Positions 17,051 through 49,152 of a DNA stretch of 49,152 nt are shown here, one piece after another. Location: positions 1-49,152 of the forward strand of contig JASLXG010000233.1 in assembly GCA_030740435.1 (NCBI GenBank), read 5' to 3'. The notes beneath the pieces are model-generated. The model saw only the letters and a list, made by a program, of their open reading frames with translations, ran no database searches and was not told the DNA's origin. Each line of letters opens with the position of its first letter. The first letter of the stretch is position 1. Origin of the DNA: Alphaproteobacteria bacterium (lineage in GTDB: Bacteria > Pseudomonadota > Alphaproteobacteria > UBA2966). Position numbers and translations under genes: made by a program.

Positions 17051-17752
17051 ATGTCTGAACGCAAAACCCTCGAGGCCGCCAGCGATATCGAGGCTCTCGA
17101 TCAACTGCTCGAGGTGGCCGGCCTGGATCTGGTCGACGTGGGCTGCGGCGCTGGCAAGCTGAGCCGCGAATTGGCCCAGCGCGGCGCCCGTGTGCTGGGT
17201 GTCGATCCCGATGCCATCCAGGCCGCCAAGAACCGCGAGGCCCCGGCCGAGGAGGGATTGCGCTTTGCCGAGGCGCCGGCCATCGCCTTGCCGCTGGACG
17301 ACGGCAGCCAGGACGGCGTGATCATGTCGCGCTCGCTCCACCACATGGCTATCGACGAGATGGAGCCGGCACTGCGCGAGGCGGTGCGCGTGCTCAGGCG
17401 AAGCGGTTTTCTCTATGTGCTCGAGCCCGATTACTCCGGCAGCTACTGGGATCTGCAGAAGTCCTTCAATAACGAATCACCGGCCCGTCTGGCCGCGCTC
17501 GAGATCTTGGACCGGGCGGCGCCTGCGCTGTTTGGCGAGATGCAGGAATATTGGTACGACTTGTCGATGAGCTTCGCCGACTTCGAGACCTACCTAGAAG
17601 CCACGCTCAGCCGCACCCATGTCAAGTTCGAGCGCCACCGGGTCGACACGCCGGAAGTGCGGGCGCGTTTCGAGGCGGCGCGTGGCGAGGACGGCCACCG
17701 CTTTGCCCAGCCCGTGCGCCTGCGCCTCTATCGCGGCATCAATAATGGCTGA
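17051..17752 (+). CDS. Class I SAM-dependent methyltransferase
   Basis: The 233-residue protein shows motif I LVDVGCGAGKLSREL (about residues 26-40), the acidic end of strand 2 in VLGVDPDA, and the motif IV/V region DGVIMSRSLHHMAIDEM, as in UbiE/Methyltransf_11 proteins. The substrate is unknown. It follows the amidase by 5 bp and overlaps the nnr gene start by 8 bp, so the three genes are probably one transcript. A reading frame extending far upstream inside the amidase is a shadow; ATG 17051 is the first start after the amidase stop. Confidence 0.88.
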   Translation: MSERKTLEAASDIEALDQLLEVAGLDLVDVGCGAGKLSRELAQRGARVLGVDPDAIQAAKNREAPAEEGLRFAEAPAIALPLDDGSQDGVIMSRSLHHMAIDEMEPALREAVRVLRRSGFLYVLEPDYSGSYWDLQKSFNNESPARLAALEILDRAAPALFGEMQEYWYDLSMSFADFETYLEATLSRTHVKFERHRVDTPEVRARFEAARGEDGHRFAQPVRLRLYRGINNG

Positions 17753-19244
17753 AAGCGGCTGGTTGAGCCAGGCGCTGCTGACGGTCGAGGACATCTATCG
17801 GGCCGACGCCGCGGCCATCGCCGGCGGTGTGCCCGGGATCGAGCTGATGGAGGCCGCGGGGGCCGGCGTCGCCGCCGAGATCACCCGGCGCTGGCCGGCC
17901 CAGAGCGCCGCCATCCTGACTGGGCCGGGCAACAACGGCGGCGACGGATTCGTGGTGGCCAGGCTGCTGGCGGAGGCGGGCTGGCAGGTGCGCCTTGGCC
18001 TGTTGGGCCCGGTCGAGGCGCTGGAGGGCGACGCCGCGGCCATGGCGGCGCGCTGGACGGGCCCGGTCGAGGCCCTGGAGCCGGCGCTGCTGGAGGGCTG
18101 CACCCTGGTGGTCGACGCCGTCTTCGGGGCCGGTCTGGCGCGCGATGTCGGCGGCCTGGCGGCCGAGACTTTGCGATCTGTGGGCGAGCGCGGCCTCGTT
18201 TGCGTCGCCGTCGATATGCCCAGCGGCGTCTCGGGTGACACCGGCGCGGTGCTGGGTACTGCCGCGCCAGCCGCCCTGACGGTGACGTTTTGTCGGCCCA
18301 AGCCTGGCCATTTGCTGCAGCCGGGAGGGGCGCTTTGCGGCGAGACCGTGGTTGTCGACATCGGCATCGCCGACGACGTGGTGGCGAAGATCGCCCCGCG
18401 GGCCGCCGCCAACCATCCCGATCTCTGGCTGGCCGACTATCCCTGGCCGCAAGCAGGGCAGCACAAGTATGGCCGCGGCCACGCCGTGGTGGTGAGCGGC
18501 GGCCCGGCCACCACCGGAGCCGCCCGCCTGGCCGCCCGGGGAGCGCTGCGCAGCGGTGCCGGGGTGGTCACGGTGGCCGGGCCGCCGGCGGCCTTGATCG
18601 TCAACGCCAGCCAACTCACGGCGGTCATGACGGCGAGCTTCGATGGCGCCGAGGAACTGGCCCGTTTTTTGGCCGAGCGCCGTCGCAACGCCGTATTGCT
18701 GGGGCCGGGCAACGGGGTTGGTAAGGCCACCCGCGAGAACGTCCTGGCGGCCCTGGCCGGGAGGGCGGCCGTGGTTCTCGATGCCGACGCCCTGACAACT
18801 TTCGCCGAGCATCCCGAGGCCCTGTTCGCGGCTTTGCGCGAGGACGTCGTGCTGACGCCGCACGGCGGCGAATTCGCGCGGCTTTTCGCCGACTTGGCTG
18901 GGCCCCACGGCGGCGACAAGCTGGCCGCCACGCGGGCCGCCGCCGCTCGTTCAGGCGCCGTGGTGCTGCACAAGGGCCCCGACACGGTGATCGCCGAGCC
19001 CGGCGGCCGGGCCGTGATCAATGCCAACGCGCCGCCTGAGTTGGCCACCGCGGGGTCAGGCGACGTGCTGGCCGGCTTGGTGCTCGGATTTCTGGCCCAG
19101 GGGCTGCCGGCCTTCACGGCGGCCTGCGTGGCAACCTGGCTGCACGGCGCCGCCGCCGCCGCCTTCGGGCCCGGCCTGATCGCCGAGGACCTGGAGCGCT
19201 CGCTGCCGGCGGTGCTGCGAAATCTGCAACGTGAAGAATTTTAG
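17745..19244 (+). CDS. nnr: Bifunctional NAD(P)HX epimerase / ADP-dependent NAD(P)HX dehydratase
   Basis: The 499-residue protein joins an N-terminal YjeF_N epimerase (GPGNNGGDGFVVARLL near residue 62) and a C-terminal carbohydrate-kinase-like dehydratase (HGGEFARLF near 371, NAPPELATAGSGDVLAGLVL near 429). Together they repair hydrated NADH and NADPH. The length matches bacterial Nnr fusions. ATG 17745 overlaps the methyltransferase stop region by 8 bp and sits exactly where the family N-terminus (LLTVEDIYRADA) begins. It is the last gene of its run; an AT-rich stretch follows. Confidence 0.93.
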   Translation: MAESGWLSQALLTVEDIYRADAAAIAGGVPGIELMEAAGAGVAAEITRRWPAQSAAILTGPGNNGGDGFVVARLLAEAGWQVRLGLLGPVEALEGDAAAMAARWTGPVEALEPALLEGCTLVVDAVFGAGLARDVGGLAAETLRSVGERGLVCVAVDMPSGVSGDTGAVLGTAAPAALTVTFCRPKPGHLLQPGGALCGETVVVDIGIADDVVAKIAPRAAANHPDLWLADYPWPQAGQHKYGRGHAVVVSGGPATTGAARLAARGALRSGAGVVTVAGPPAALIVNASQLTAVMTASFDGAEELARFLAERRRNAVLLGPGNGVGKATRENVLAALAGRAAVVLDADALTTFAEHPEALFAALREDVVLTPHGGEFARLFADLAGPHGGDKLAATRAAAARSGAVVLHKGPDTVIAEPGGRAVINANAPPELATAGSGDVLAGLVLGFLAQGLPAFTAACVATWLHGAAAAAFGPGLIAEDLERSLPAVLRNLQREEF

Positions 19245-19329
19245 GTATTTTTTTCAGAAAGTATTCGAAAGTAATACGTTAAAGATAAACGATAGTTTCG
19301 CCGACCGTCTTGAATAAAATGGTTAATTT

Positions 19330-19361
19330 CCCCAAATATAGAATTACAATAATTTGGGGAG
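19330..19361 (+). promoter_or_regulatory. Hairpin sequestering the Shine-Dalgarno of the small gene at 19368
   Basis: CCCCAAAT (19330-19337) pairs perfectly with ATTTGGGG (19352-19359) around a 14-base loop. The right strand contains most of the GGGGAG that would serve as the Shine-Dalgarno of the ATG at 19368. In the mRNA the ribosome site would be partly hidden, as in RNA thermometers or protein-binding leaders; as DNA the same symmetry could be an operator. It lies in a 123-bp AT-rich stretch (19245-19367) unlike the rest of the window. Confidence 0.5.
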
Positions 19362-19367
19362 AGCATC

Positions 19368-19637
19368 ATGATGCATTTACTGCGACGCAAACCAAGGCAT
19401 TTCGACGAAGTCGCCGTGGGCGGCCTTTATCATCGTCTCCTCGCCACCAACGTCAGCGAGACGGCGGAGATCGTGGCCCTGGCCGAAGACGCCTATGGCG
19501 TGCCCCATGTGCGCTTCGAATTGACCGCCCACCTCTCTGGCAAGATCCTCGATACCGGCCAGCGCACCCTGGCCACCGCCGCTTTCCTGGCCGATTTTCG
19601 CCCGGGTCCGCCGCAGGAATTGGCCGCGGCCAGTTGA
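19368..19637 (+). CDS. Small conserved-looking hypothetical protein (89 aa)
   Basis: The function is not recognised. The 89-residue protein has a basic start (LLRRKPRHF), a GGLYHRLL stretch, then alternating beta-like segments (AEIVALAEDAYGVPHVRFEL) and RTLATAAFLADF. It looks like a small single-domain cytoplasmic protein with an SH3-like or similar beta fold. GGGGAG six bases before ATG 19368 supports the start; ATG 19371 is also possible. The coding part has the normal G+C of the window, while both flanks are AT-rich, suggesting an independently regulated single gene. It stands alone between nnr and malonyl-CoA decarboxylase. Confidence 0.7.
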   Translation: MMHLLRRKPRHFDEVAVGGLYHRLLATNVSETAEIVALAEDAYGVPHVRFELTAHLSGKILDTGQRTLATAAFLADFRPGPPQELAAAS

Positions 19638-19841
19638 GGAGTACGATAATTTGGCAATAATAGATTATTAAAATATTAAAATACAGATAGTTAAGATATT
19701 TTCTTAACCTGTTACTTTATATTGCGGGGCAGTCCTCGGGCGCCTGTTTCGGGTGCCCTCGTACGACTTGCGAGCGAGCCAGCCGGGGACGACCAACCTG
19801 GGGCTTGCGGTTTGTCGTCCGGCGTCACACATTAGCAAGGC
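19638..19841 (+). other. AT-rich spacer with hairpins upstream of malonyl-CoA decarboxylase
   Basis: The first ~95 bases are strongly AT-rich and contain a 7-bp perfect hairpin GTTAAGA-TATTT-TCTTAAC (19690-19708), a possible terminator for the small gene or a protein site. The second half returns to high G+C and holds GGACGAC (19787-19793) complementary to GTCGTCC (19814-19820), a possible leader structure. No coding sequence is evident. Confidence 0.45.
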
Positions 19842-21278
19842 ATGAGCACACAAGAGCAGCCAGGGGAATCCGCCGGCCCGGCGCCAGCCGGGTTTTTCGA
19901 CCGCGCGGTACGCAATATTCGGCGGGCCTGGAAGGACGTCGCCGGTTCGGCCCGGGTGGCGCTCACCGGCAGCGTTCGGGCCGACCTGCCGGACGAGGAC
20001 GCCGAACGCCTGGCGGGCCAGATCGCGGCTTGTCTGGAGGCCCGCGGCGGCGAGGTTTCGGCCCGCGCCCGGGCGGCCGACCTGGGCCGCACCTATCTTG
20101 GTCTCAGCGCCACTGGCCGGCAGCGCTTCCTGCGTCTGCTGGCGGCCAACTACGGCGTCGACCGTGACGCCCTCAAACTGGCCACGGCGGCCCTGCAGGC
20201 GGCCGAAGGCGCCGCCTTCGATGCCGCCGAAACGAAGCTGCGGGCGGCCCTGGTGCCGCCTCGGGTCAAGCTTCTGACCCAGTTCAACGCCCTTGATCAG
20301 GGCGTCAAGTTTCTCGTCGACATGCGCGCCGACCTGCTGCCGTTGGCCCGGCGTGAGGTCAGCCTGAAAGCCCTGGACGACGATCTCAGGGGCCTGTTGG
20401 CGTCGTGGTTCGATATCGGCTTTCTCGACCTCAAGCGCATCACCTGGGAGGCCCCGGCGGCGTTGCTGGAGCGCCTCATCGCCTACGAGGCGGTGCACGC
20501 CATCCAGTCCTGGGACGACCTCAAGAACCGGCTTGGCTCGGACCGACGCTGTTATGCCTTCTTTCATCCGCGCATGCCGCAAGAGCCGCTGATCTTCATC
20601 GAGGTGGCGCTGGTCGCCGGCATGGCCGGCAACGTCCAGGAACTGCTCGACGAAGGTGCCCCGGCGGGTGATGCCGAAGATGCCGACACGGCCATCTTCT
20701 ATTCCATCTCCAACGCCCAGAAAGGACTTGCCGGGGTCAGCTTCGGCAGCTTTTTGATCAAACGCGTGGTCGACGACCTGCTGCCCGAGTTGCCGGGCCT
20801 CAAGCGTTTCGCCACGCTGTCGCCGATGCCGGGCTTTCGGGGTTGGCTGGAAAGCGCCGCGGCGGCCGGTGCCATCGACTTCGGCGCCGCCGAGGAACGC
20901 AGCTTCAAGGCCCTGACCGGGGCCGACAACGCGGCCAGCGGACTGGCGGTGCTGCTGGCCCGGCCCGACTGGCCCGATGATGGCGAAGTGGTACAGGCAT
21001 TGCGGCCGCTGCTGCTGCGCAGCGCCGCCCGCTATTTGCTGGAGGAAAAGCGCCATGGCGCGGCGCTCGACCGGGTGGCTCATTTCCATCTCTCGAACGG
21101 GGCTCGCGTCGAGCGTCTCAACTGGTTGGGCAACGCCTCGCCCGAGGGCCTCGGGCAATCGGCCGGACTGATGGTCAACTACCGCTACAAGCTGGCCGAT
21201 ATCGAGGCCAATCACGAAGCCTACGCCACCGACGGCACCGTCGTGGCCTTGCCGGCGGTGCGCAACTTGCTGAAGTAA
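19842..21278 (+). CDS. Malonyl-CoA decarboxylase
   Basis: The 478-residue protein matches malonyl-CoA decarboxylase (malonyl-CoA to acetyl-CoA and CO2) over its length. The N-terminal half is the helical domain. FYSISNAQKGLAGVSFGSFL (near residue 286) contains the catalytic Ser, and FHLSNGARVERLNWLGNASP (near 414) contains the catalytic His, as in the human enzyme. LMVNYRYKL near the end is also conserved. ATG 19842 has only AAGG upstream, so initiation may be weak. The gene stands alone; no malonate transporter or malonyl-CoA synthetase is nearby, so whether it serves malonate use or malonyl-CoA balance is unknown. Confidence 0.92.
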   Translation: MSTQEQPGESAGPAPAGFFDRAVRNIRRAWKDVAGSARVALTGSVRADLPDEDAERLAGQIAACLEARGGEVSARARAADLGRTYLGLSATGRQRFLRLLAANYGVDRDALKLATAALQAAEGAAFDAAETKLRAALVPPRVKLLTQFNALDQGVKFLVDMRADLLPLARREVSLKALDDDLRGLLASWFDIGFLDLKRITWEAPAALLERLIAYEAVHAIQSWDDLKNRLGSDRRCYAFFHPRMPQEPLIFIEVALVAGMAGNVQELLDEGAPAGDAEDADTAIFYSISNAQKGLAGVSFGSFLIKRVVDDLLPELPGLKRFATLSPMPGFRGWLESAAAAGAIDFGAAEERSFKALTGADNAASGLAVLLARPDWPDDGEVVQALRPLLLRSAARYLLEEKRHGAALDRVAHFHLSNGARVERLNWLGNASPEGLGQSAGLMVNYRYKLADIEANHEAYATDGTVVALPAVRNLLK

Positions 21279-25400: not shown

Positions 25401-25428
25401 CTTGCGAAACCGTCGCGTCGCCCCATTT
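25401..25428 (+). promoter_or_regulatory. Sigma-32 (heat-shock) type promoter of lon
   Basis: CTTGCGA (25401-25407), a 13-bp spacer and CCCCATTT (25421-25428) match the sigma-32 consensus CTTGAAA-N13-15-CCCCATNT, with a perfect -10 block. The lon start is about 80 bp downstream. Another CTTGAA lies upstream near 25360 but has no CCCCAT partner at suitable distance. Heat-shock control of lon is well established in proteobacteria. Confidence 0.65.
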
Positions 25429-49021: not shown

Positions 49022-49152
49022 GGTCCGTTGACAATTAACGCAAATCAATGATGGTGGCGACGAGGCTCAAGTTTGCGGCATAGCTTGTGTCGGTTTTGTC
49101 GTAGCGCGTAGCAATGCCCCGGAATTCCTTGATCTTGGCGAAATAGTTCTCG
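49018..49152 (-). mobile_element. IS5-family insertion sequence, 3' end (right copy, truncated by window)
   Basis: The reverse complement of this stretch is identical to 6-140. The element end reads GGGTCCGTTGACAATT going inward, directly after CTA of CTAG. It interrupts the usual gene order downstream of rnj. Confidence 0.85.
49035..49152 (-). CDS. IS5-family transposase, C-terminal fragment (partial)
   Basis: Read on the minus strand, the open frame comes from beyond the window edge and ends at TAA (49037-49035) with the same residues as the left copy (NYFAKIKEFRGIATRYDK, then YAANLSLVATIIDLR). The gene is cut by the window, so completeness is unknown. Perfect identity with the other copy implies recent transposition or that both ends derive from one repeat collapsed during assembly. 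Confidence 0.82.
   Translation of the reverse strand, partial: ENYFAKIKEFRGIATRYDKTDTSYAANLSLVATIIDLR

Follow-up and report, generated by a model that had tools for sequence, protein, structure and literature searches.

A probable RpoH-type heat-shock promoter sharing its -10 element with an inverted repeat over the Shine-Dalgarno sequence of a small alphaproteobacterial gene

The analysed window, which is a whole contig of 49,152 nucleotides, most likely carries an RpoH (sigma-32)-type heat-shock promoter ahead of a small conserved gene, and induction of this gene would then occur at the level of transcription (Table 1). The two promoter boxes, CTTGAA-N16-CCCAAATA, span 19309-19338 and match, in bases and in spacing, those of heat-shock genes of the same genomes; they are also conserved between related species. 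As read from these sequences, the left arm of a perfect inverted repeat, originally predicted to be a regulatory RNA hairpin over the Shine-Dalgarno (SD) sequence, would be the -10 box, and its right arm would be the SD plus the four bases before it. Transcription from sigma-32 promoters begins a few nucleotides past the -10 element. Under heat or protein-folding stress, RpoH-bound RNA polymerase would be expected to initiate at about 19341-19346, giving an mRNA leader of approximately 22-27 nt with a free SD. Because the predicted start falls after the -10 box, the left arm should be missing from the heat-induced message. The hairpin could then not form in RpoH-started mRNA and would be possible only in RNA begun further upstream. 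In RNA models begun at 19341 or 19345, the transcript folds no better than shuffles, and the predicted cost of opening the SD is about 2.4 kcal/mol for each of two starts there.

Table 1 Coordinates of the features discussed, in positions of the window
Feature	Position	Strand	Basis or remark
nnrD/nnrE (NAD(P)H-hydrate dehydratase/epimerase)	17619..19244 as listed	+	adjoins the 89-aa gene upstream; start probably further in
-35 element CTTGAA of the predicted RpoH-type promoter	19309..19314	+	hsp20 likeness, weight matrix (PWM), conservation
Left arm TCCCCAAAT	19329..19337	+	perfect inverted repeat, 9 bp
-10 element CCCAAATA of the predicted RpoH-type promoter	19331..19338	+	includes the larger part of the hairpin's left arm
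Expected transcription start region (predicted)	19341..19346	+	sigma-32 promoter geometry
Right arm ATTTGGGGA	19352..19360	+	perfect inverted repeat, 9 bp; overlaps the SD
Shine-Dalgarno GGGGAG	19356..19361	+	6 nt ahead of ATG; sequence; also kept in the sister species
89-aa protein, unnamed alphaproteobacterial family, predicted small beta-barrel (SH3/Sm/tudor-like)	19368..19637	+	homologues; fold model
Second perfect repeat GTTAAGA/TCTTAAC	19690..19708	+	7 bp; without T-run
RpoH-like promoter CTTGCG-N14-CCCCATTT, positive control	25401..25428	+	107 nt before lon (25508); weight matrix

The small gene and its surroundings

Judging by its homologues in the sister species and in the class, the 89-aa frame is a genuine gene. 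The homologue of the sister species (G001, contig NZDS01000037.1, a Rhodospirillaceae metagenome assembly), the sole other species of the genus in the comparison, is 73-74% identical to it, and a search with a 12-member alignment found members of the family in 73 of 385 genomes of the class. No family in Pfam, NCBIfam or PHROGs matched the 89-aa protein. Further, PDB sequences gave weak stretches only (the best being VirB8, at E 0.07), and no relatives were found in viral contigs. An AlphaFold2 model built from a 5-row alignment (mean pLDDT 83) predicts four strands with one helix before and one after them. The solved structures closest to this model were Sm, tudor and SH3-like barrels with middling scores (Foldseek best E 0.015, TM 0.40; VIA best Z 6.6). 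The modelled barrel likeness is that of a common arrangement and says nothing on function.

The AT-rich flanks noticed at the outset were confirmed, with a GC content of 0.32 in 19245-19367 and 0.22 in 19638-19720 against 0.63 within the gene. The hairpin reported after the gene exists as a 7-bp perfect repeat, but the downstream region differs in the sister species, and no terminator-like site was called at 19690-19708. Malonyl-CoA decarboxylase (19842-21278) lies beyond the region 19245-19735, followed further downstream by trigger factor and clpP. The small gene seems to keep its nnrD/malonyl-CoA decarboxylase neighbourhood widely. In one related genome (G004) it is preceded by a divergent PAS-domain frame instead of nnrD. 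In other families, by eye, a malonyl-CoA decarboxylase-like frame ends ahead of the homologues in L005 and L012, and an nnrD-like frame ends ahead of the one in L013. In a third genus of the family, the homologue in G005 (L007, reverse strand, approximately 1480-1533) carries a TAA in frame some 17 codons in; an RpoH-like promoter above chance was not found there, and two other genomes of the same genus (G003 and G006) gave no match to the 89-aa protein. As for the contig itself, its ends (1-120 and 49040-49152) are similar and inverted, the same stretch occurring at 87 on the forward and at 49071 on the reverse strand, and the frame at its start reads by eye like the C-terminus of a transposase; the contig therefore probably broke at two insertion sequence copies.

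Promoter boxes and their likeness to heat-shock promoters

In the same genome, an hsp20 gene (PF00011, L040) has identical boxes at identical spacing, CTTGAA-N16-CCCAAATA. Upstream of hsp20, clpB and groES genes in the same family lie elements that begin with CTTG and continue, 17-18 nt on, with a C/T-rich box that contains A. The pattern CTTG-N17-18-CYYAMATA has four sites in the genome (hsp20, the 89-aa gene and two others) and none in the reversed control, and the looser pattern CTTGAA-N15-16-CYNANAT has 12 sites against one. Inspection of 13 distinct pattern sites placed four directly ahead of recognisable genes (hsp20, the 89-aa gene, hflK and rimP); the others fall inside reading frames, straddle them or lie at a greater distance. 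The RpoH-like sites ahead of hflK and rimP are those of L119 and L118. A search of the genome with the strictest E. coli-like pattern showed bare enrichment (4 sites against 1 in the control).

We scored the window with a weight matrix made from 11 heat-shock promoters of hsp20, clpB and groES genes of the family. These were chosen by hand among 35 upstream regions, after setting aside near-duplicates and loci in which no site stood out clearly. The site at 19309 scored 21.8, the second in the window 13.2, and the third, ahead of lon, 12.8. When the three hsp20 sites of the genus were removed from the matrix, 19309 still scored 18.3, whereas 20 simulated sequences of 98 kb reached no more than 16.1. 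The lon site, which served as a positive control, is likely the RpoH-type promoter of that gene. The RpoH1 consensus published for Sinorhizobium meliloti (PMC4843759) is CTTGAA-N15-16-CCTATAT. At a spacing of 16, the site at 19309 matches 11 of the 13 bases in that consensus and is the sole such site in the window, where 0.45 would be expected; both deviations from it are in the -10 element (CCCAAAT vs CCTATAT).

The boxes recur in relatives. Upstream of the gene, a site of this form scores best in each of the four species from the two nearest genera (reached by 0 of 60 shuffles in each); the three other species read TTTGAA, CTTGTA and CTTGTA at -35, and CCCAAAT is present in all four. RpoH is encoded in each of the seven genomes of the family (TIGR02392, above cut-off), and its use at this site, like the start position and the heat induction, is predicted from these likenesses. 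The promoter could not be extended to the protein family as a whole: seven of 37 homologue leaders (36 distinct genes, L015 and L107 being the same gene) have an RpoH-like promoter at p<0.05, and four of the seven come from the four species of these two genera. The AT-rich upstream stretch was also scanned for an ordinary sigma-70 promoter by consensus, and none was called.

The inverted repeat and its possible roles

The hairpin of the original prediction, CCCCAAAT at 19330-19337 and ATTTGGGG at 19352-19359, was located exactly, but its stem has 9 bp instead of 8, with a loop of 14 bases between the arms. In the RNA form, flanking U-G and U-A pairs lengthen it to 11 pairs, and the predicted fold of 19320-19370 has an energy of -15.0 kcal/mol (z -3.36, equalled by 0 of 200 shuffles). 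A 9-bp stem arose in 9 of 5000 shuffles of the whole 37 nt (19326-19362). With the -10 element and the SD fixed and the intervening stretch alone shuffled, it arose in 118 of 5000, so the stem is only mildly surprising once these two elements are granted. A stem able to hide the SD thus exists, as first proposed, and its arms are unchanged in the one sister species. There, 6 of the 14 loop bases differ, and the upstream spacer is identical in 90 of 123 columns.

Aligning the leader among relatives for covariation and for conservation of the stem had been suggested as checks on the hairpin. The two species of the genus yield no covariation, because no base pair of the stem differs between them. 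The conservation check gave a mixed result. Both species of the next genus retain the gene, an SD and the -10 element and lack the compact stem, but they are predicted to pair the -10 element with the SD through a different structure, with three compensatory changes. Their SD does not carry the right arm ATTTGGGG, and the CCC of the -10 element pairs in the predicted fold with the GGG of the SD via a longer stem.

This arrangement allows a further reading, which would add to the heat-shock promoter and would not replace it: the -10 element may double as an anti-SD, making read-through RNA with both arms untranslatable and leaving RpoH-started RNA translated, so that the gene would be kept off outside RpoH control. 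We consider it possible, though on balance doubtful. For read-through RNA of the four species, the predicted cost of opening the SD is 14.1, 11.1, 6.2 and 4.1 kcal/mol; for RNA from the promoter start, modelled from 6 nt after the -10 element, it falls, in the same order, to 2.4, 2.9, 3.2 and 1.7 kcal/mol. Pairing between the -10 element and the SD is predicted in all four species, in two unlike loop architectures. Nevertheless, with both elements fixed, shuffles of the single sequences equalled the observed pairing in 3, 11, 18 and 17 of 200. The two species of the second genus share 11 consensus pairs, of which three are changed on both sides and none is broken. Among 400 column shuffles that keep the -10 element and the SD, two reached 11 linking pairs and none reached three linking covarying pairs. 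However, the linking windows had been chosen with the fold already in view, and neither the alifold energy as a whole (35 of 400) nor the covariation as a whole (111 of 400) was exceptional. Moreover, the sample comprises only two species per genus.

Other heat-shock leaders served as controls (15, two of them without a start). Of the 13 with a start found, 12 show no such pairing, some automatic starts being doubtful (L037 and L053) and most control leaders being longer than that of the 89-aa gene; the clpB leader of the sister species, on the other hand, pairs likewise (2.99 pairs). No terminator-like site was called between nnrD and the 89-aa gene, which lie on the same strand, and nnrD is a possible source of read-through RNA, but in G004 the gene does not stand behind nnrD. 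In its full form, with the read-through RNA translationally dead, the RpoH-initiated RNA live, and this double use of the -10 box kept across two genera by different RNA architectures, the proposal is a tentative one, to which we give rather less than even weight.

The repeat could also act as DNA, as an operator at which a dimeric repressor binds over the -10 element and the start site. Its perfect symmetry would suit such a protein, as would arm centres approximately 22-23 bp apart, near two helical turns, and arms that stay unchanged in the sister species while 6 loop bases differ. A repeated operator was sought, but CCCAAAT-N8-24-ATTTGGG has no second copy in the genome, and the next genus lacks the right arm, which makes an operator improbable.

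The switch of the original prediction, in which the leader stem opens with temperature or by ligand binding, fares poorly. Placement of the SD within a perfect stem that is kept in the sister species speaks for an RNA thermometer or other cis switch. Against it, the left arm is most likely the promoter -10 element, and a thermometer is unlikely because that arm would not be in the message. Even in a full-length RNA model, the unpaired probability of the SD is 0.008 at 37 °C, 1-2% between 42 and 45 °C (0.017 at 45 °C) and 0.066 at 70 °C, so that the modelled stem remains shut up to 70 °C. No thermometer or riboswitch in Rfam matched, and among 32 homologue leaders only two, both from this genus, hide the SD more than shuffles do, which leaves SD hiding without standing as a family-wide feature. 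A thermometer or other switch is accordingly very unlikely here. Separately, the hsp20 leaders of this genus (L034, L040 and L045) extend 97 nt from the -10 element and closely resemble one another from copy to copy. A ROSE-type thermometer might lie in them; when the leaders were compared with Rfam, no family, ROSE included, reached its gathering score.

Relation to known systems and meaning

The predicted heat-shock promoter resembles the RpoH1 promoters of S. meliloti (PMC4843759) in its -35 element, its spacing of 16 and the C-C-x-A-x-A-T form of its -10 element; it differs in having CCCAAAT where that source has CCTATAT, and use of RpoH is predicted here. For the possible second role of the -10 element, phage T4 offers a precedent. 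According to PMC3014915 and PMC2988022, long transcripts of gene e, soc, 49 and I-TevI hide the SD, and short RNAs that lack the 5' strand arise, in the case of gene e and I-TevI, from a late promoter a little way upstream. If the heat-shock promoter is granted, the layout described for gene e and I-TevI, a promoter within the 5' strand of an SD-hiding hairpin, is shared; here the promoter would be a bacterial heat-shock promoter, the gene is chromosomal, and the hiding of its SD in a longer transcript is predicted. A heat-shock promoter combined with SD hiding in read-through RNA was not found in the open-licence PMC literature at title and abstract level.

In the leaders of the IS10 and IS50 transposases, the SD is hidden only in read-through RNA. 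The likeness lies in a repeat that has its 5' arm ahead of the start site of the gene and shields that gene from promoters outside it, whereas the 89-aa gene is no transposase and no transposon ends were seen at it. ROSE and FourU thermometers also have the SD paired in the leader and share the heat theme; unlike them, the stem here is too stable in the model, its left arm would lie outside the heat mRNA, and Rfam gave no match.

The mechanism is thus most likely, in the main, a heat-shock promoter, and the hairpin at most may silence stray messages reading in from upstream. With this reading, a suspected RNA switch becomes a promoter call that can be tested. The case is also a caution for hairpin scans: where one arm of a stem is a promoter element, the mRNA may lack that stem. 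Should the double use of the -10 element prove true, the silencing of read-through RNA known from T4 late genes would gain a chromosomal counterpart tied to stress. For the group itself, the analysis places an unnamed but widespread alphaproteobacterial protein in its likely heat-shock regulon.
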